DNA of 64,000 nucleotides from Armatimonadia bacterium. GTDB taxonomy: Bacteria > Armatimonadota > Zipacnadia > Zipacnadales > JABUFB01. A program made the translations under genes and the position numbers. Position 1 is the stretch's first letter; each line of letters begins with the position of its first letter. The notes under the pieces were generated by a model. It was not told the DNA's origin. It searched no databases and saw only the letters and a program-made list of their open reading frames with translations. The stretch is from the NCBI GenBank assembly GCA_039679385.1, contig JBDKVB010000048.1:1-64000 (forward strand). Direction: 5' to 3'. Shown piece after piece: positions 43,157 to 53,251 of this stretch.

Positions 43157-44143
43157 ATGCGCGCATACCCATCTCGGTTAGTGGCTGTTGCCTTCGCAGT
43201 GGGCGCCCTGTTGGCGGCCCAGGGCTTGGCCTGTGCCCAGACGAACGCCCCTCTGACCGCGACCGCCTCGACCGACAAACAGCGGATCACTGTTGGCGAA
43301 GTGCTGACCCTCAAGCTCCAGGTCACCTGCCCGACGGGAACGACGGTGTCCCTGGTCGAGCCGGCCCAGCATCTGGCGCCCTTCGAGATCCGCGACAGTT
43401 CCACCAGCTCACAACCTTCTGGGGACCAGACCGCCGTCACGCTCACCTACAAGCTGGCGATCTTCGAGGTAGGGGAGAGGGAGCTGTCCGGTCTGGAGCT
43501 CTCCTGCCGAGTCCCCAACAGCCAGTCGCCGCAGACGGTGAAGGTGCCCTCGGTCAAGGTCGCCGTCGTGAGCGTACTGACGGCCGATTCCCGGGAGATC
43601 AAGGACATCCGCGACCCGGTTCCGATCAAGATGGACACCGAGCAGTGGTTCCTACTGGTGCTCAAGATCCTGCTGGCGCTTGCTGTTCTGGTGGCGCTGG
43701 TCTGGTACCTGCGCAAGCGTCTCAGGCGAAGGCAGAGGGTCGCAGCCGCCACGCAGGAAGCCCTGACGGCCCATGCGAGGGCTCTGCGTGAGTTGGCGGC
43801 GCTCGAGGAAGACAGGCTCCTGGAGGCCGGCGCAGTCGTTGACTTCTACACGCGCCTGAGCACGATTGTGCGCGAGTACCTCGAGGCACGCTACGACGTC
43901 CCGGCGATGGAGCAGACCACCTGGATGATCCTGCGCGACCTGCAGCGCCGGCATGTGCCCTCCGAGGTGTGCGGGCGCTTCAAGGCCTTGCTGCAGGCCG
44001 CCGATCTGACCAAGTTCGCCCACCATCACCGCCTGGCGGGCGAGGCCGAAGCTGACCTGGACGAAACCCGAAGCCTGGTACAAGACACGAGCCTGGCTGC
44101 TGAGCCTGCCGGGCAGGAGGTCTCGGCGCCGGCGGAAATCTGA
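43157..44143 (+). CDS. BatD/DUF4381-like membrane protein
   Basis: The 328-residue protein has a signal peptide (cut near CAQ), a beta-rich external domain (30-150, TVGEVLTLKLQVTCPTG), a membrane helix at about 167-187 (FLLVLKILLALAVLVALVWYL) and a cytoplasmic part with VVDFYTRLSTIVREYLEARYDVPAMEQTTWMIL. The last stretch is the pattern seen at the end of BatD and DUF4381 proteins. The operon thus holds two BatD-like genes, this one and 47092-48867. The gap of 124 bases to the previous gene is the largest in the operon. Confidence 0.78.
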   Translation: MRAYPSRLVAVAFAVGALLAAQGLACAQTNAPLTATASTDKQRITVGEVLTLKLQVTCPTGTTVSLVEPAQHLAPFEIRDSSTSSQPSGDQTAVTLTYKLAIFEVGERELSGLELSCRVPNSQSPQTVKVPSVKVAVVSVLTADSREIKDIRDPVPIKMDTEQWFLLVLKILLALAVLVALVWYLRKRLRRRQRVAAATQEALTAHARALRELAALEEDRLLEAGAVVDFYTRLSTIVREYLEARYDVPAMEQTTWMILRDLQRRHVPSEVCGRFKALLQAADLTKFAHHHRLAGEAEADLDETRSLVQDTSLAAEPAGQEVSAPAEI

Positions 44144-44168
44144 GGCCGACACCGGCACGCCAAACGCA

Positions 44169-45155
44169 ATGATCCAATTCGCCTTTCCCTGGGCCTTTCT
44201 GGCCCTTCTGGTGGTCCCCTTCCTGGCATGGCGCATCCTGCGAGGGAACCATCGTCCTGCGGCGGCGGTCGTGTATACCGAGACGGATGGCCTGCCCATC
44301 CGCCGGGCTCAGGTGAGACCGATGGTGGCGGCCTGTGTGCCCTGGCTCCGCCTCTTCGGCCTAGTGCTGCTGATCGTTGCGCTGGCTCGTCCCCAGGGCC
44401 AGGGCTCAGTCGAGAAGGATACCAGCGAGGGCATCGACATCGTCCTGACCTATGACATCTCCGGCAGCATGTCGGCAGAGGACTTCCAGCCGAAGAACCG
44501 TTTCACCGTGGCCAAGGAGACCCTCAGCCGCTTCGCCCTGGAGAGTGAGAACGATCGGCTCGCGCTGGTGATCTTCGCCAGTCGTGCCTTCACCCAGTGC
44601 CCACTCACCCTGGACCACGAGATGGTCGCACAACTCCTGGAGCAGGTGCAGCAGGGGATGATCCAGGACGGGACGGCCATCGGCATGGCCATCGCCACCT
44701 CCGCCCAGCGGCTACGTGAGTCCAAGGGCAAGAGCCGGGTCATCATCCTCATGACCGACGGCGTCAACAACCGGGGCAAGATCGGCCCGGTCACCGCTGC
44801 CCGCGCCGCGGCAGCCCTGGGGATCAAGATCTACGCCGTGGGTGTGGGCAAGCCGGATGGCGGTCCTGTGCCGGTCAGCGACGGGCTCTTCGGCAAGCGC
44901 TACGTCCAGATCCCGATGGACGAGAAGACCCTCCAGAGGGTCGCTGAGACCACGGGCGGCAAGTACTTCCGTGCCACCGACGCCCAGGCCCTGGCGGGCA
45001 TCTACAAGGACATCCGCTCGCTGGAGAAGAGCCAGTTCGAGCTCAGCAAGCGCCGGCCTGTCGTCGAGGAGTTCGCTCGTTACCTGTGGCCGGGGCTGCT
45101 CCTGGTGCTGATCGCCCTGGTGCTGGACTGCACCTATGCACGACGCACTCCCTGA
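44169..45155 (+). CDS. batA: BatA-type VWA membrane protein
   Basis: The 328-residue protein starts with a membrane anchor (FPWAFLALLVVPFLAW), then a second helix (FGLVLLIVALARPQ). A von Willebrand A domain has the metal-site motif DISGSMSAEDF and MTDGVNN. A C-terminal helix follows (LWPGLLLVLIALVLDC). This is BatA as found in the Bacteroides aerotolerance operon. It starts 25 bases after the previous stop and its VWA domain lies in the periplasm. Confidence 0.9.
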   Translation: MIQFAFPWAFLALLVVPFLAWRILRGNHRPAAAVVYTETDGLPIRRAQVRPMVAACVPWLRLFGLVLLIVALARPQGQGSVEKDTSEGIDIVLTYDISGSMSAEDFQPKNRFTVAKETLSRFALESENDRLALVIFASRAFTQCPLTLDHEMVAQLLEQVQQGMIQDGTAIGMAIATSAQRLRESKGKSRVIILMTDGVNNRGKIGPVTAARAAAALGIKIYAVGVGKPDGGPVPVSDGLFGKRYVQIPMDEKTLQRVAETTGGKYFRATDAQALAGIYKDIRSLEKSQFELSKRRPVVEEFARYLWPGLLLVLIALVLDCTYARRTP

Positions 45156-45219
45156 GGGCCCCGGCTTGGTACGGCGGCCCCTCTGCAATGCCTGACTTGG
45201 GTAGGTCGACCTGATTTCG

Positions 45220-46341
45220 ATGCCCGGTTATTTCTCGTGGCAAAACCCGTCTCTCCTGCGCTGGTTGTGGCTACTGCCACCGCTGGCTGCCCTCGTGTGG
45301 TTCGCCGTCGTCCAGCGCGAGTGGACCCTGCGAACCTTCCTGGGCGCCCGCTACGTGCCGGCCGACTGGCGCTGGCATCGTCGCCGACGACTCCTCAAGG
45401 GTGCGCTGGTGGTCTGCGCGATCGGCCTCCTGATCGTCGCCATAGCACGCCCGCGCATCGGCTCCGAGGTCCAGAAGGTCAAGCGCGTCGGCGCCGACGT
45501 GGTGTTCGTCATCGACACCAGCGATAGCATGTTGGCGCAGGACGTGAGCCCGAGCCGCCTCGAAGCGGCCAAGGAAGCTGCGCTCGCCCTGGTGGGACGT
45601 CTCGAAGGTGACCGGATTGGGGTCGTCGTCTTTGCGGGCAGCGCCTACATGTACTCTCCGCTAACCCTTGACCACGACGCCGTGAGCATGTTCGTCTCGA
45701 GCATCGAACGCGGTTCGGCGCCGGCGCCCGGGACCGCCCTTGATGGCGCCCTGGGCTCGGCGGTGCGCCTCCTGAGCAAGGCCGAGGCGAAGTACCGCGC
45801 CATCGTGCTTTTCACCGATGGGGAAGACCAGGACGAGAATGATCGGATTCCCTCGCTACAGAAGGCTCACTCTGAGGGGATTCGGGTCCATGTGGTCGGC
45901 CTGGGAGGCACCCAGGGCGAACCCATCCACCTCCCGGCGGAGGAAGCTGCGACCCCGGACGCGAACTCGCCCGAGGGAATGCTGGACCAGCTCTTCGGTA
46001 CCGCGAAACCGTCCCAGTCTTCCTCGGCCTTCAAGCGCGACGCCGAGGGCAAGGTCGTCATGACCAAACTCAACGAGAAGCTCCTCGCCCGAATCGCCAG
46101 GGAGGGCGACGGGGTTTTAGTCCGCAGCTCGGCCAGTGGCACCAACATCGACCGCATCTATCAGGCCATCGGGGGGATGGAGGGCGCTGTGGCCGGCACC
46201 TACCAGTTCACGCAGTATGCCGAGCGCTTCCAGTGGCCGCTGGGGATCGCCCTGGTGCTGCTGATCCTGGAGATGCTCATCTCGCATGCCCCCGCCAACG
46301 GAGGAGGTCAGAGCAATGGCACGAGCAAACCGTCCGAGTAG
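45220..46341 (+). CDS. batB: BatB-type VWA membrane protein
   Basis: The 373-residue protein has the same layout as BatA: two N-terminal helices, a VWA domain with DTSDSMLAQDV and FTDGEDQD, and a final helix (WPLGIALVLLILEMLI). An insert with Ala-Asn-Ser-Pro-Glu-Gly (about 245-265) and a Ser/Gly-rich tail are distinctive. BatA and BatB are thought to dimerise. Its last 26 bases overlap the BatC-like gene. Confidence 0.9.
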   Translation: MPGYFSWQNPSLLRWLWLLPPLAALVWFAVVQREWTLRTFLGARYVPADWRWHRRRRLLKGALVVCAIGLLIVAIARPRIGSEVQKVKRVGADVVFVIDTSDSMLAQDVSPSRLEAAKEAALALVGRLEGDRIGVVVFAGSAYMYSPLTLDHDAVSMFVSSIERGSAPAPGTALDGALGSAVRLLSKAEAKYRAIVLFTDGEDQDENDRIPSLQKAHSEGIRVHVVGLGGTQGEPIHLPAEEAATPDANSPEGMLDQLFGTAKPSQSSSAFKRDAEGKVVMTKLNEKLLARIAREGDGVLVRSSASGTNIDRIYQAIGGMEGAVAGTYQFTQYAERFQWPLGIALVLLILEMLISHAPANGGGQSNGTSKPSE

Positions 46342-47089
46342 GACGCGTCGGCTGGTCCTCGCGTTGGCGGTCGTCCTGAGCCTACCTCTGGTGCTGGGCT
46401 TCAGCCTTCCCGGCGAGTTCGCGCGCCTCATGAACGCCGGCGACCACTCCTACGCAAAGGGCAAGTTCAAGGAAGCCCTTGCCCGGTACACTCAGGCCTC
46501 CCAGCTTCGCCCTGAGGATCCGCAGGCGCTGTTCAACCGTGCAGCAGGCCAGTTCCGGGTCTCGAGCTACCAGAAGGCGCTGGCCGACAACGACCAGGCC
46601 GCCCAACGAGCGCAGGGGAAACTTCGCGAGTACGCCGAGTACAATGCAGGGAACTGCCTCTACAAGATGCAGCGCCTGGACGACGCCATCGAGCGGTACA
46701 AGCGGGCCCTCACCCTCGATCCGGACGACCTGTGGGCCAAGCACAACCTTGAGATGGCGATGCGCCAGAAGAACCAGCAGAAGGACAAACAGCAGCAACA
46801 GCAGCAGAACCAGAATCAGCAGAAGTCGTCCCAGAAACAGGACCAGAACCAGCAGGACAAGCCGCAGAACAACCCGTCCCAGGACCAGCAGAACCAGCAG
46901 CAACAACCCGAGCAGAAGCCGCAGGACCAGCCCAAACAGCAGCAACCCTCGCAGGCAGATCAGCAGCCGCTGAACGAGCAGGAGGCTGCACAGCTCCTGA
47001 GCTCGCTGTCCCGCGACGACGCCGAGCTTCAGAAGTCCATCCGCCGTGCGCCACTCACGCCTGAGCGCCCGACCAGCAAGGACTGGTAG
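46316..47089 (+). CDS. batC: BatC-like TPR protein with Gln-rich region
   Basis: The 257-residue protein has a signal-type N-terminus (LVLALAVVLSLPLVLG) and about three TPR units (37-160, for example AEYNAGNCLYKMQRLDDAIERYKRAL). A low-complexity stretch of about 80 residues follows, dominated by Gln with Lys, Asn, Asp and Pro, and a short conserved end (AAQLLSSLSRDDAELQKSI). TPR units fit a scaffold for the Bat complex. GGAGGAGG at 46301-46308 precedes ATG 46316, inside the end of batB. Confidence 0.85.
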   Translation: MARANRPSRTRRLVLALAVVLSLPLVLGFSLPGEFARLMNAGDHSYAKGKFKEALARYTQASQLRPEDPQALFNRAAGQFRVSSYQKALADNDQAAQRAQGKLREYAEYNAGNCLYKMQRLDDAIERYKRALTLDPDDLWAKHNLEMAMRQKNQQKDKQQQQQQNQNQQKSSQKQDQNQQDKPQNNPSQDQQNQQQQPEQKPQDQPKQQQPSQADQQPLNEQEAAQLLSSLSRDDAELQKSIRRAPLTPERPTSKDW

Positions 47090-47091
47090 CC

Positions 47092-48867
47092 GTGAATGCC
47101 GTTCCCGGCCGCGACAATCCGGCTCCCGGAACCTGTCGGCACCTTGCCACTCCGGTGTTGCTGAGCCTTCTTGTGCTGGTCCTTTCGCTGCCGGCCCTAG
47201 CCGAGCCGAGCTTCCAGGCGGAGGTCGATCGCAACAGCCTGTCCACCGATGATGTGCTGTTTCTCTCTGTCACCCTCACCCTCTCGGGCGGCGACGATGG
47301 GGGAGAGCCGGAGCTTTCGCCCACCAAAGACTTCGCCGTCCTCGGCACACCGCAGCGTCAGGACGGCTACAGCATGGTGAACACGCAGATCACCCGCTAC
47401 TCCCAGCGCGTCTTCACCCTTCAGCCACGACGAACCGGAATGCTGACCGTTCCTTCCGCGACCGTGACCGTCAACGGCAAGACACTCCACACCGCGCCGA
47501 TTCGCGTCGAGGTCACCAAGGGCAGTGCGGCCTCCGTCGCGCCTGCGTCTCCCTCTTCCTCCTCGGGTCGCGCACCTTTCGAGGGGAACCCGGACTTCGC
47601 CATCCAGGTCCGTGCGGACCGGCGTGAGCTCTACGTGAACGAGCAGCTTCTCCTGAGCGTGGACTACTACACGGGAGTGCCGGTGCCCGAGGACCTGGGA
47701 CAACGGACGCCGATCGCCGAAGGGTTCGTCGCGGAGTCCCTTACCAGTCCCCGTCCGGAGCATGTCGTGGTCAACAATATGGATTACGGGCGACTGACCC
47801 GGCGCTGGGCGCTCTTCGCAGCCTCCCCGGGGAAGAAGACGGTCAGTGCGGCTCCGGAGACCATCGCCACCACGATGAGCTCGGCCACCCGCGAATACCG
47901 CAGCAACACCCTTGAGATCAGCGTGAAACCGCTCCCGACGCCGCCCGAAGGAACCCACTTCAGCGGAGCCGTCGGCTCCTTCACCGTCCAGCTTCAGGCC
48001 GAGAAGCAGCAGGTGAAGGCCGGCGAGGGTCTCACTGTGCGCGTCATCGTCGATGGTGTGGGCAACCTGCGATCGGTCAGTGCGCCGCCCCTCGACCTGG
48101 GAGACGCCTGCAAGGTGTACGCCTCGGGCGAGAATCGCAAGGTTGAGCCCCGCTCGCTGGGGTCGCGCGAGGCAATCGGCGGCCGAGCGGAGTTCGAGTA
48201 CCTGGTCGTCCCGCGACGCTCGGGAACTCTGGAGATCCCTGCGCTGAGCTTCGCTTACTTCAACCCTGACTCGGGGCGCTATGAGACCACGCGCAGCGAT
48301 CCGGCGCGGGTCAACGTCACTCCCGGTGAGGTCCTCCAAGAGCCCGCCGCGACCTCGCAGGAGGCGACGCTTCGCCATATCCATGCCGAGCACCCGCGGC
48401 TCGTGTCGCGCTCACCACGCGCGGTCATACCCTTCGTCCTACTGGTGGCCCTGATCTGTGTGGGCAGCGTAGTGTGGGCGGGCTGGCGGCGGATCGACAC
48501 CGATCGACGCCTCGCGGATCCGCTCAGGGCAAGGTCGCTCGTAGCTGGAAGGGCTGCACGGAAGGCCCTGGCGGCTGCGGAGGCAGCCTCCGGCGAGAGC
48601 TTCTACGAGGAACTCGGCGACGGCGTCTACCGCTATCTGGCCGACAAGTTCGGGCTACCAACGGCCGGCGTCTATGGAGAGGCACTTCGTGAAGCCCTCC
48701 TGCAGCACGGTGTTGATGCTTCGCTTGCGGAGGCCGCCCGTGATCTTGTCGCCACCTGCCATCGGTGTCGGTATGCCCCGGCCGGGATGGCCGACACGCC
48801 TCGAGAGCAGGCTCTGGCGCAGGCACGGCAGCTCCTTGACGCCCTGGAACAGGGGGTGCGCTCATGA
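47092..48867 (+). CDS. batD: BatD-type protein
   Basis: The 591-residue protein has a signal peptide (VLLSLLVLVLSLPALA), several immunoglobulin-like beta domains (40-430, PSFQAEVDRNSLSTDDVLFLSVTLTL then PDFAIQVRADRRELYVNEQLLLSV), a membrane helix near 447 (VIPFVLLVALICVGSVVWAGW) and a cytoplasmic helical end. This matches BatD of aerotolerance operons. GTG 47092 begins two bases after the previous stop. The C-terminus overlaps the next start by four bases. Confidence 0.88.
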   Translation: MNAVPGRDNPAPGTCRHLATPVLLSLLVLVLSLPALAEPSFQAEVDRNSLSTDDVLFLSVTLTLSGGDDGGEPELSPTKDFAVLGTPQRQDGYSMVNTQITRYSQRVFTLQPRRTGMLTVPSATVTVNGKTLHTAPIRVEVTKGSAASVAPASPSSSSGRAPFEGNPDFAIQVRADRRELYVNEQLLLSVDYYTGVPVPEDLGQRTPIAEGFVAESLTSPRPEHVVVNNMDYGRLTRRWALFAASPGKKTVSAAPETIATTMSSATREYRSNTLEISVKPLPTPPEGTHFSGAVGSFTVQLQAEKQQVKAGEGLTVRVIVDGVGNLRSVSAPPLDLGDACKVYASGENRKVEPRSLGSREAIGGRAEFEYLVVPRRSGTLEIPALSFAYFNPDSGRYETTRSDPARVNVTPGEVLQEPAATSQEATLRHIHAEHPRLVSRSPRAVIPFVLLVALICVGSVVWAGWRRIDTDRRLADPLRARSLVAGRAARKALAAAEAASGESFYEELGDGVYRYLADKFGLPTAGVYGEALREALLQHGVDASLAEAARDLVATCHRCRYAPAGMADTPREQALAQARQLLDALEQGVRS

Positions 48868-49649
48868 GGCGGGTGCGCCCTTGCGTACGGCCAAGCGCTT
48901 TCGCGATTCTGCTGACCCTTGGTGTCTGCCTGTCATACTCAGCCCCGGCCCTGGCCGCAGACCCGTCCGCGCAGTTCCAGGAGGCCAACCGCCTTTACAA
49001 CGCTGCAGACTTCGCCGGTGCTGCCGCGGTCTATCAGCAGCTTGCAGAATCGGGTCAGGCGGGCGCCGACGTCTGGTACAACCTCGGTAACTGCTATGCC
49101 CAGGAGCAGCAGTATGGCCGTGCGCTGGCTGCGTACCAGGCTGGTTGCCGTGTTGCTCCACGCGATCCAGACCTGCTCAACAACATCGCTCAGGTCCAGA
49201 CGCTACGCGGCGATGTTCCGCCCGTGGTCCCTGCCTCGTGGCTCGGGGCGCTGTCTTCGGGAGTGTTGTCCCGTTTCACCCTCAACGAGACGATTGTGGG
49301 GACGCTTCTGCTCCTGATGCTCTGCGCGGCGCTCGCTCTGGCCTACCTTCTGCGCATCGGGCGGCCACGACGCGTCCTGGTGGCCCTTGGCGGCTGTGGC
49401 CTTCTGCTGGTACTCGCCGTGAGCGCCTGCACGGGGAAGTACCTGCGCGAGTACGTTCACCCCATCGGGTTCGTCGCGGTTTCGCAAGCCGGCCTGCGCT
49501 CTGGTCCCGGCGAGCACTTCGAGAGTGCCGGTTCGCTGGCCGACGGTACCCAACTGGACATCACAGGCGAGTCCGGCCAGTGGTTTGAGGTCAGAAGGCC
49601 GGAAGGACATCGTGCGTGGATCACGAAAGCCGAGGTAGCCAGGTACTAG
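48864..49649 (+). CDS. batE: BatE-like protein: TPR, two membrane helices and SH3-type domain
   Basis: The 261-residue protein has a signal peptide, a TPR pair (QFQEANRLYNAADFAGAAAVYQQL... ADVWYNLGNCYAQEQQYGRAL), two membrane helices (about 145-190) and a C-terminal bacterial SH3-like domain (AGLRSGPGEHFESAGSLADGTQLDI). The layout is that of BatE. It starts at ATG 48864, overlapping the preceding TGA. It ends the bat operon; the fusion gene follows 118 bases on. Confidence 0.88.
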   Translation: MRRVRPCVRPSAFAILLTLGVCLSYSAPALAADPSAQFQEANRLYNAADFAGAAAVYQQLAESGQAGADVWYNLGNCYAQEQQYGRALAAYQAGCRVAPRDPDLLNNIAQVQTLRGDVPPVVPASWLGALSSGVLSRFTLNETIVGTLLLLMLCAALALAYLLRIGRPRRVLVALGGCGLLLVLAVSACTGKYLREYVHPIGFVAVSQAGLRSGPGEHFESAGSLADGTQLDITGESGQWFEVRRPEGHRAWITKAEVARY

Positions 49650-49766
49650 GCCCCTGATCGCCAGTGGGGCCGTGACCGCTGCACCCGTCGAGACCGACGG
49701 GATCGCCGGGAGGCGTGCCCCACGAGCCGCCGTCTGGAGCCCTACTACTACGTCGTTGCGGGTGTC

Positions 49767-52055
49767 TTGCTGCAGGGCCTCTCACCGGTCCTGACCAAGA
49801 TGCTCTTGCAGCACGGCCTCTCCAGCGAGACGGTGGTCACCGCTCGCTATCTTCTAGCCGTTCTCGTGCTGCTCCCCTTCGGCGTTCCGAGCATGGGGTG
49901 GCGTACGCCTGCAGGACCACCTAGACCCCGCGACTGGGCAGCTCTCATTCTGGTCGGCGCACTCGGGTCCGGCGTCGGTGCGCTGCTCTTTACGGCGGCC
50001 CTGAGGTACTCCTCTGCCGGCATCGTCAACTCCATCTCCAAGACCGCGCCGATCTTCGTCGCCTTCCTCGGCTACCTGACCTTGCGTGAACGCATCAGCA
50101 CTTCGCGCCTCCTGCTTGTGGGCGCGATGGTCGGGGCCGACCTACTGATCGGCGTCGGTGAGCTGGCCTACGGACAGGCCGAGGTCCGGACGCGACTCCT
50201 GGGCGACCTGCTCGCCTTGCTGGCCGGGATCACCCGCGCCACCTCGGAGATACTCGCCAAGGGTGCACTCCGGCGCTTTGCTCCCTCTACCGTGACCTTG
50301 TGGCGTTTCCTCAGCGGCCTACTCGTCACCGGCGGCGTTGCCCTCTACACGAACACCTGGCGCGGTCTTCTGCAGCTTGGCCTGTCTGACTTCGGCTTGC
50401 TGCTCCTCCTGGGAGTCGTCTGCACTGCGGTCTCCATGTACCTATACTACCGCGGGACGGCGGCGATCCCGGTGCACGTGGCCGTCAGTCTGCGAATCCT
50501 CGGCGCCATCGTCACCGTGGTGCTGTCCTGGGTCCTCCTCGGCGAAACCCTCAACCTGTACCACGTGATGGGGATGGGCCTGCTCATCTCCGGGGCGTAC
50601 CTGCTGGTCCTTCGCACAGCGCGCGAAGAGCCGGCACCAGCAGCCGAGGCGGGGGAGACAACTGCTGCGCCGCCGACAATGGCTCGTCCCGAGCGCATCA
50701 GGGTCCGCCTAACTCTGCTCGTCTCGGCCTTTCTCGTCGCCACCGTTGCCCTCTCGACGGGTCTCTCTGTGCGCCACGCAAACCAGATGGTTCAGGAGCA
50801 GACCAGGCTGACCATGGGCAAGGTCGCGTCAGTCCTCGTGCAGCTTGCGAACCTGGAGGACCCGCCGTCGCGCCAGGCCATCCAGCAGTACCTGAGCCGA
50901 GTAGTCCGCCACCGTATAGAGAATGAGGCCTATTCGGTCGAGATCGTCTATATCGCCATGATCGGGCCGACCGGAGGCCTGGTCGCCTTCGCCCTCAACG
51001 AAGACTTGGCCCTGGTCGATGCAAATGGGAACCCCTACCGTGTCGGGGATGCCGACGCGGTGCGCCGTCTGCTCGCTATGGCCGACAACGGTCAGCTCGC
51101 GCTCAGCAACGACATCATCCCGGTATCGGCGGTCCTTACCCGCCCGGGCGACGACACCGGCCCTCTCGCGACGGTGGAGATCGGGTGCAAACGCAGCATC
51201 GCCAACCGCGTGATCGCCGAAAGTGTGGCACGAAGCACCGTGATGGTGCTCCTTCTCACCGCCCTTGGAGTGCTTCTCGCAGCACGGAGCGTCAGACGCT
51301 TCACGCACCCAATCGAGCGCATCGCGGCGGCCATGCAGAGGATGTCCGGCGGCGAACTAGACCTGCCGCTGTACTCTGAGGGGCACGGGGAGATCCGCCA
51401 GATCGGCGACTCCCTTCAGACCATGCGCGACAACCTGCAGATGGGTGGCGCAGTAAGGCACGCCCTGGTGCGCTACATAACCAACCAGATCACCGCCGGG
51501 GGCGCGCCGGTGCAGGCGCAGGCGACCGACGCCCCCTTTGGAGCCGCTCTGCTCTTTGTCGAGGTTCCGCGGGTGCCTGCTTCCGGCCAGCCGCTGGGCC
51601 TCAAGGCGCTTTCCGACTTCGTCGACCGCACCGTTGCCGTCGTCCTTCGCAACGACGGCCAGATACTCACCTACGCCGACGGCTTCCTCGTGATCCGCTG
51701 GCCGACGGAGGGGGAAGAGGACCTGCTCTGGGCTGTCCTGGCTTCCCAGTCCATCAAGGAGGCACTCTCGCCGTCTCTGGCCGCCCTGGGAGCCGTCTCC
51801 CGGCTTGGCCTGGCGGTCGCCACGACCGAGGACCAGAACGAGAGCACCTCGCTGCTTGAGGCGGTCCGCAAGCGCACCCTTGGGCAGCAGCCGGTGACGC
51901 AGCCGGGCGCCCACGTGCTGCTGAGCGAGCGTGTCGCCCTCCTGGTGGACCCCTACGTCGTCGCCCGGCGGCGCGGTGAGGAGCCGGTGTGGCAGCTAAT
52001 CGGCATCGCCGAAGAGCCGGCTCTCGAAGATCTGGGCGATCTTGAGGGCACCTGA
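49767..52055 (+). CDS. DMT transporter fused to a sensor with HAMP and degenerate nucleotide-cyclase domain
   Basis: Residues 1-285 form an EamA/DMT-type transporter of about ten helices (SSAGIVNSISKTAPIFVAFLGYLTLRERI is its hallmark). After a Pro/Ala/Glu linker (287-308) a second unit begins: helix 313-333, an external segment to 488, helix 489-505, a HAMP domain (506-560) and a cyclase-like domain (590-750). In that domain FVEVPR replaces the metal-binding Asp motif, while YADGFLVIRW and LLSERVALLVDPY match class III cyclases. It probably no longer makes cAMP. The start is unsure: TTG 49767 is the first standard codon, but coding likely begins upstream. Confidence 0.82.
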   Translation: MLQGLSPVLTKMLLQHGLSSETVVTARYLLAVLVLLPFGVPSMGWRTPAGPPRPRDWAALILVGALGSGVGALLFTAALRYSSAGIVNSISKTAPIFVAFLGYLTLRERISTSRLLLVGAMVGADLLIGVGELAYGQAEVRTRLLGDLLALLAGITRATSEILAKGALRRFAPSTVTLWRFLSGLLVTGGVALYTNTWRGLLQLGLSDFGLLLLLGVVCTAVSMYLYYRGTAAIPVHVAVSLRILGAIVTVVLSWVLLGETLNLYHVMGMGLLISGAYLLVLRTAREEPAPAAEAGETTAAPPTMARPERIRVRLTLLVSAFLVATVALSTGLSVRHANQMVQEQTRLTMGKVASVLVQLANLEDPPSRQAIQQYLSRVVRHRIENEAYSVEIVYIAMIGPTGGLVAFALNEDLALVDANGNPYRVGDADAVRRLLAMADNGQLALSNDIIPVSAVLTRPGDDTGPLATVEIGCKRSIANRVIAESVARSTVMVLLLTALGVLLAARSVRRFTHPIERIAAAMQRMSGGELDLPLYSEGHGEIRQIGDSLQTMRDNLQMGGAVRHALVRYITNQITAGGAPVQAQATDAPFGAALLFVEVPRVPASGQPLGLKALSDFVDRTVAVVLRNDGQILTYADGFLVIRWPTEGEEDLLWAVLASQSIKEALSPSLAALGAVSRLGLAVATTEDQNESTSLLEAVRKRTLGQQPVTQPGAHVLLSERVALLVDPYVVARRRGEEPVWQLIGIAEEPALEDLGDLEGT

Positions 52056-52138
52056 GCACATTCCTGGGCCGGCACGAAGGTCCCATACGTCCCGACGCGG
52101 AAGCTATACCCGAGAAGGAATCTCCTAGTGGTGTGAGC

Positions 52139-53251
52139 ATGCCCAGACTGCGCGTGGTCAGTCTCGCCGCGATTCTCGGTCTCCTCTGTCTGGTCCTCTT
52201 GCTGACCGGCTGCCCCAAGCCGACTGAGCAAGAGCCGATCCGCGTTGTCGTGAGCGATGACAGCCAGTCGCGGGACGAGCGTCCCTCCGGGGCCAGTGTC
52301 GCCGAACTGGCCAAGCGCGAGGGCGAACTGGCGTGGTACACGTCTCTGCCCGACGAGCCGGCCCAGAAGTTCCTCGAGCAGTTTGAACGCAAGTACCCGG
52401 GCATCACCGCGCGATGCGTGCGCGAATCCACCTTCGACATCATCCAGCGCATCCAGTCTGAGATCGACAACGGCAAGGTGCTGGCTGACGTTGTGCACGT
52501 TCTTGACGTCGCGCCCTTCGTCAAGCTCAAAAAGCAGGGACAGCTACTGCGCTACGAGTCCCCCGAGGAGCGCTCCATCCCGCCCCAGTACAAGGACCCC
52601 GGGATCTGGTCCGCCTTGCGCTGCGTAGCCCTCTGCATGGCTTACGATCCGAACCGCGTCCCTGATTCGGAGGCGCCGCGGACCTGGACCTCCTTGCTCG
52701 ATGACCGATGGCGGGGCAAGATCGCGCTCAAAGACGCGCAGACGGCCGGCTCGGCCTACGCGCACTACTACTTCCTGCGCGAGCTCTACGGCGTTTCCTA
52801 CTGGCGGTCGATGGCAGCGCGTAGCCCCAAAATCTTCAAAACTGCCGAAGAAAGTATGAAAGCTCTCAAGAGCGGTGACGTCGCCATCGTCGCCGGTGCC
52901 ATGGACTACACCATCCATGACGAGAACGCGCCGGACACACCAATAAGAGCGGCCTGGCCGACCGATGGGGTGCCGCTCATGCCTGGACCGGTGGCCATTC
53001 TACGGTCCGCGCCGCACCCGAACGCCGCTCGACTGTTCATGGACTTCGCACTCTCGGAGGAGGGCCAGAGGGCCCTGCGGGACCTCCTGGGAGCCTATTC
53101 GGTGCGGTCCGACGTGCCGCCGCCTGAGGGATCCCCGAACCTCAAGGACCTGCATATCCTGGCCCCGGCCGGTGGGTGGGACCAGTACGCGCTCAGCCAG
53201 GATACCTTGAAGGCCGAGTACACCGGCCTGTTCCATCCAGGCTCTGAGTAG
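52139..53251 (+). CDS. Iron-type ABC solute-binding lipoprotein
   Basis: The 370-residue protein has a lipoprotein signal (LLCLVLLLTGC, Cys25) and a family 1 fold close to ferric-iron and putrescine-type binding proteins: GELAWYTSLPDEPAQKFLEQFERKYPGI, TWTSLLDDRWRGKIALKD and RLFMDFALSEEGQ. It should bind Fe3+ or another small ligand. No permease or ATPase gene is nearby. The start is ATG 52139 or GTG 52133; neither has a good ribosome site (AAGGAA is about 20 bases away). Confidence 0.85.
   Translation: MPRLRVVSLAAILGLLCLVLLLTGCPKPTEQEPIRVVVSDDSQSRDERPSGASVAELAKREGELAWYTSLPDEPAQKFLEQFERKYPGITARCVRESTFDIIQRIQSEIDNGKVLADVVHVLDVAPFVKLKKQGQLLRYESPEERSIPPQYKDPGIWSALRCVALCMAYDPNRVPDSEAPRTWTSLLDDRWRGKIALKDAQTAGSAYAHYYFLRELYGVSYWRSMAARSPKIFKTAEESMKALKSGDVAIVAGAMDYTIHDENAPDTPIRAAWPTDGVPLMPGPVAILRSAPHPNAARLFMDFALSEEGQRALRDLLGAYSVRSDVPPPEGSPNLKDLHILAPAGGWDQYALSQDTLKAEYTGLFHPGSE

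Follow-up and report, generated by a model that had tools for sequence, protein, structure and literature searches.

The locus raises the question of whether a transporter and a cyclase-like signalling module can be one bacterial protein, and of what such a protein would sense and report. In the window (the whole stretch of DNA analyzed, 64,000 nucleotides), one uninterrupted open frame on the forward strand, from the stop codon at 49647-49649 to the stop codon at 52053-52055, holds the gene concerned. We found that 49767-52055 is one gene, which encodes an EamA/DMT permease, a predicted PAS/Cache-like sensor flanked by transmembrane (TM) helices, a HAMP domain and a domain of class III cyclase fold in which the catalytic residues are missing. 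It is nearly certain that the gene has this architecture and that its cyclase domain has lost catalysis; how the protein signals we infer. The features are as follows:

44010..49649, forward strand: Bat-type genes upstream of the fusion (two VWA/BatA-B, TPR, BatD, BatE-like TPR+SH3)
49734..50624, forward strand: EamA/DMT permease domain, ten-helix family with two EamA repeats (Pfam EamA 8.4e-38 in two stretches; start of homology by alignment)
50625..50714, forward strand: cytoplasmic linker, variable, without a conserved internal start codon
50715..50771, forward strand: TM11 (hydropathy)
50766..51218, forward strand: predicted extracytoplasmic PAS/Cache-like sensor domain (AlphaFold model, pLDDT 86.5; structure matches)
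51225..51281, forward strand: TM12 (hydropathy)
51291..51440, forward strand: HAMP domain (Pfam 7.2e-12, residues 548-597 of the stop-to-stop frame)
51525..52016, forward strand: predicted pseudo-cyclase, class III cyclase fold that lacks the catalytic residues and the greater part of the dimer arm (alignment, profile, fold)
52133..53251, forward strand: SBP_bac_6-type solute-binding lipoprotein (SBP) with lipobox LLTGC, directly downstream of the fusion (Pfam 3.1e-23)

Pfam recognized EamA in two stretches (130 bits versus a cut-off of 28), so that both EamA repeats of an EamA/DMT transporter are present. A hydropathy scan, which also marked two stretches within the soluble domains, located nine of the ten permease helices, followed by TM11 and TM12 on either side of some 150 extracytoplasmic residues. 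The union of transporter, HAMP and degenerate cyclase in one frame had been proposed in an earlier, sequence-only reading, and is now borne out by Pfam (EamA and HAMP), by profile and fold matches, and by recurrence in independent genomes.

That reading had placed the gene at 49767-52055, of which the frame stands but the start does not. Translation probably does not begin at TTG 49767: this codon falls within TM1, and in the alignment homology with relatives already begins at about 49734 (aligned LEPYYYVV). No in-frame ATG, GTG or TTG was found upstream of it in the open frame. Positions 49709-49721 contain GGGAGG, then an out-of-frame GTG (49715), then a CCCC run (approximately 49717-49721), which is possibly a homopolymer error or a real frameshift. 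At the place aligned with 49715, the relatives L008 and L009 have a GTG in frame, and L007 has no start codon exactly there. An in-frame ATG at 50679 would permit the frame to yield two proteins, with permease and sensor begun separately. No start codon is conserved at this place in the relatives, however, and their frame is unbroken there; we therefore reject separate translation as very improbable. Nor are the homologues encoded as two genes, as the relatives are single genes, with the exception of one genome (G021) that has lost the transporter half altogether.

Matches to the fusion were identified in 31 of the 46 genomes of the class Ca. Zipacnadia, all of them metagenome-assembled. Since G021 lacks the permease, the one-gene architecture is present in about 30. 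The relatives were detected by an alignment-based scan, a single-sequence scan of contigs having given no match. In the whole-genome search, the single-frame fusion was found within the order of the window's organism and also in two further families of the class, and the matching records of the species collection are assigned to Armatimonadota, Ca. Zipacnadia or WS1 and are likewise all metagenome-assembled. Misassembly is ruled out, as the fusion recurs in many independent genomes. Among 26 aligned relatives, Pfam recognized EamA in all, HAMP in 15 and Guanylate_cyc in 4.

Folded alone, the sensor domain of the window protein gave an AlphaFold model with pLDDT 86.5, whose best matches among solved structures were 4u64 (Z 9.1), DcuS (8.8), sporulation kinase D (8.8), WalK/YycG (8.6) and CitA (8.4). 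With Z only moderate (about 8-9), this is moderate evidence for an extracytoplasmic PAS/Cache-like fold; Pfam reported sCache_3_2 in one relative only. The HAMP of the window protein, with TM12 directly before it, scored 45.9 bits versus a cut-off of 25. No match to the sensor part was found outside the class in the 291 genomes of the phylum that were searched, where matches span HAMP and cyclase only.

A direct Pfam search of the window protein returned no cyclase family. Profile-to-profile comparison with the class III cyclases of intact relatives, HAMP excluded, scored 88, whereas none of 100 column shuffles exceeded 17. A structure predicted for 50679-52052 (pLDDT 80.7) matched class III cyclases with Z of 14 to 16, the best being Rv1625c (4p2f, Z 16.0, 2.6 A across 151 residues); its underlying alignment includes the rows of four relatives with intact cyclases, and these may favour the fold. 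Profile and predicted fold thus agree that the C-terminal domain is a class III cyclase homologue. In such enzymes two Asp residues bind metal, a Lys/Asp pair sets the adenylate-type choice of substrate, and Asn and Arg stabilize the transition state. The corresponding six positions in the window read E/T/G/gap/R/Q, so that none of the residues for metal, substrate choice or transition state remains; three of the six belong to an arm that is shortened here. The domain accordingly does not qualify as a class III cyclase enzyme. The loss of the metal motif had been anticipated correctly, and so had the domain order; nucleotide binding, which had been suggested for this domain, is less likely with all six residues gone and the arm shortened.

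Four relatives have an intact cyclase: L014 and L016 (family f5, in the order of the window's organism), L027 (f8) and L032 (f7), with Pfam E-values down to 1.7e-32. All six checked residues are kept in these four, and the set is lost in every other row. The window domain is therefore a pseudoenzyme, descended from a transporter-cyclase fusion that was probably active. A tree built on permease and sensor puts all four intact copies on the same side of a branch (96/99). When the remaining families of the class serve as outgroup, the tree is consistent with a single loss of the enzyme, with transfer as an alternative.

Is the pseudo-cyclase then a decaying remnant, and the remaining role of the protein EamA transport fed by the SBP? 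All the catalytic residues are gone, and dN/dS is raised in the pseudo-cyclase (0.25 for L012/L013, 0.53 for L020/L025, and 0.69 for window/L007, where dS is near saturation) relative to the permease (0.07 to 0.21) and an active cyclase (0.11); EamA is the most constrained part of the fusion. From these ratios, constraint on the pseudo-cyclase is relaxed but not absent. Against decay, the domain is retained in all 24 pseudo-type relatives sampled whose gene extends that far, with E-x-DD-x-x-R-A kept in 21 and E-D-x-L-W-A in the other three, which are the window's family. Moreover, G021 (L106:2773-4128) dispensed with the permease and retained a 452-residue sensor-HAMP-pseudo-cyclase, with the SBP gene downstream. 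We consider the remnant explanation unlikely. The candidacy of E-x-DD-x-x-R-A as a new motif was weakened by related DHA-type motifs at the same place in ordinary cyclases.

Catalytically incomplete halves pair in mammalian cyclases, and the pseudo-cyclase might similarly pair with, and regulate, one of the active class III cyclases of the genome. The window genome contains four PF00211 (class III cyclase) matches, with those listed on contigs C45, C73 and C129, and the fold of the pseudo-cyclase is kept. The shortened arm, on the other hand, normally borders the dimer interface of a class III enzyme, and no cyclase gene is linked to the fusion, so that we regard such pairing as improbable, more so than decay. 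As the genome encodes these further class III cyclase domains and also one protein that binds cNMP, cAMP signalling in the organism is plausible.

The solute-binding lipoprotein gene is a co-inherited, fixed partner of the fusion. Relatives of families f2 to f8, and L058 of f1, have it next after the fusion, even at loci that lack Bat genes, and almost every locus for which this region was covered shows it immediately downstream. Using an E-value of 1e-25 for the SBP, both genes were present in the identical 31 genomes and absent from the identical 15 of the 46 (Fisher p 2e-12, kinship ignored). The 15 absences amount to about four clades, two of which consist of one species each, whose sisters are positive (G008, G019), and independent co-losses of the two genes are limited to about three or four events. 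Both genes are kept even where they are unlinked: 35 kb apart and on opposite strands in G002, and on separate contigs, each among other genes, in G011 and G016. An ABC importer would have permease and ATPase encoded alongside its binding protein; by inspection, with part of the neighbours scanned with Pfam, neither was recognized next to the SBP gene, whether in the window or in the relatives sampled, relocated copies among them, and within these neighbours the SBP does not qualify as part of such an importer. The retention in G021 of the sensor-HAMP-pseudo-cyclase and the SBP without a permease points to the sensor, and not the permease alone, as the partner of the SBP. The lipobox Cys is present in 17 of 18 aligned copies. 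The exception is a family f7 SBP (L107:7687-8814), whose N-terminal helix may hold the protein instead. Family matches of the SBP are to iron-type (FbpA-like), AfuA and PhnS proteins, none of them decisive for the ligand.

The earlier suggestion that the domain reports transport or an external signal can thus be narrowed: given the intact cyclases in relatives and the SBP partner, sensing of an external, SBP-delivered ligand becomes a likelier role than a report on transport alone. We propose an SBP-assisted transceptor, to which we give an even chance. The lipoprotein would catch a small solute and hand it to the sensor domain, the permease or both, and the ensuing movement would travel via TM12 and HAMP into the cytoplasmic domain. 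In f5, f7 and f8 this domain would act as an adenylate-type cyclase with cAMP as output. In the window lineage, where the enzyme is dead, the same movement would now serve as a signal by conformation or by partner binding, probably a protein-protein output, such as pairing with another protein or gating of the attached permease. A broader version, which we advance more tentatively, is a class-wide receptor in which a Cache-HAMP-adenylate cyclase receives its input from an orphan SBP together with the EamA permease, with the enzyme lost once, the receptor kept and the pseudo-cyclase signalling without cAMP. The faster evolution of the pseudo-cyclase, as expected for a partly relaxed remnant, counts against the transceptor, and co-occurrence with the SBP could reflect a transport role only.

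Transceptors combine transporter and signalling modules in one chain, as the fusion does; that signalling depends on a substrate we infer here. The passages cited use the term for the SLC5-STAC histidine kinases CbrA and CrbS, which likewise join a transporter to signalling domains in one polypeptide (PMC13022988, PMC9100948). These kinases differ in having SLC5 instead of EamA and a kinase instead of a cyclase, and in the same passages neither a separate Cache-like sensor between two TM helices nor an SBP partner is described. Apicomplexan and ciliate guanylate cyclase-P4-ATPases resemble the fusion in linking a transporter-type membrane protein to class III cyclase domains (PMC6592433, PMC7858053). 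They are eukaryotic, however, and contain a P4-ATPase instead of EamA. To our knowledge, they are without HAMP or a Cache-like sensor. Bacterial membrane class III adenylate cyclases with HAMP share the TM-HAMP-cyclase chain, and the intact relatives of the fusion hold their canonical catalytic residues, but the fusion has a ten-helix EamA permease before the two-TM sensor and the window copy is catalytically dead. Stand-alone EamA/DMT transporters share the two EamA repeats with the predicted transporter half of the fusion, but are without the 460-residue sensor-HAMP-cyclase tail, and the SBP, although of the same SBP_bac_6 family as FbpA-like iron, AfuA and PhnS proteins, is an orphan. No EamA-cyclase fusion was found in the open-access papers searched.

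The fusion is thus a variant of the transceptor idea and not a new principle. Bacterial transporter-signalling fusions are rare, and here intact and dead enzyme versions occur in one class, together with a co-inherited SBP. Fusion and SBP suggest a nutrient-sensing receptor, and make it testable whether a transporter-fused cyclase senses an SBP-delivered nutrient and what the output of a pseudo-cyclase does.

The Bat-type cluster is linked to the fusion, with gene order kept, in several families, and is missing beside the f5 and f3 g10 copies. A functional link between fusion and Bat genes is for this reason not favoured. The class, which is little studied, has been described from hypoxic and anoxic sediments (PMC10290634), and a Bat-type aerotolerance cluster occurs in this group. 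At one locus (L038:9429-10157), a gene with a metallo-beta-lactamase fold comes after the SBP gene.
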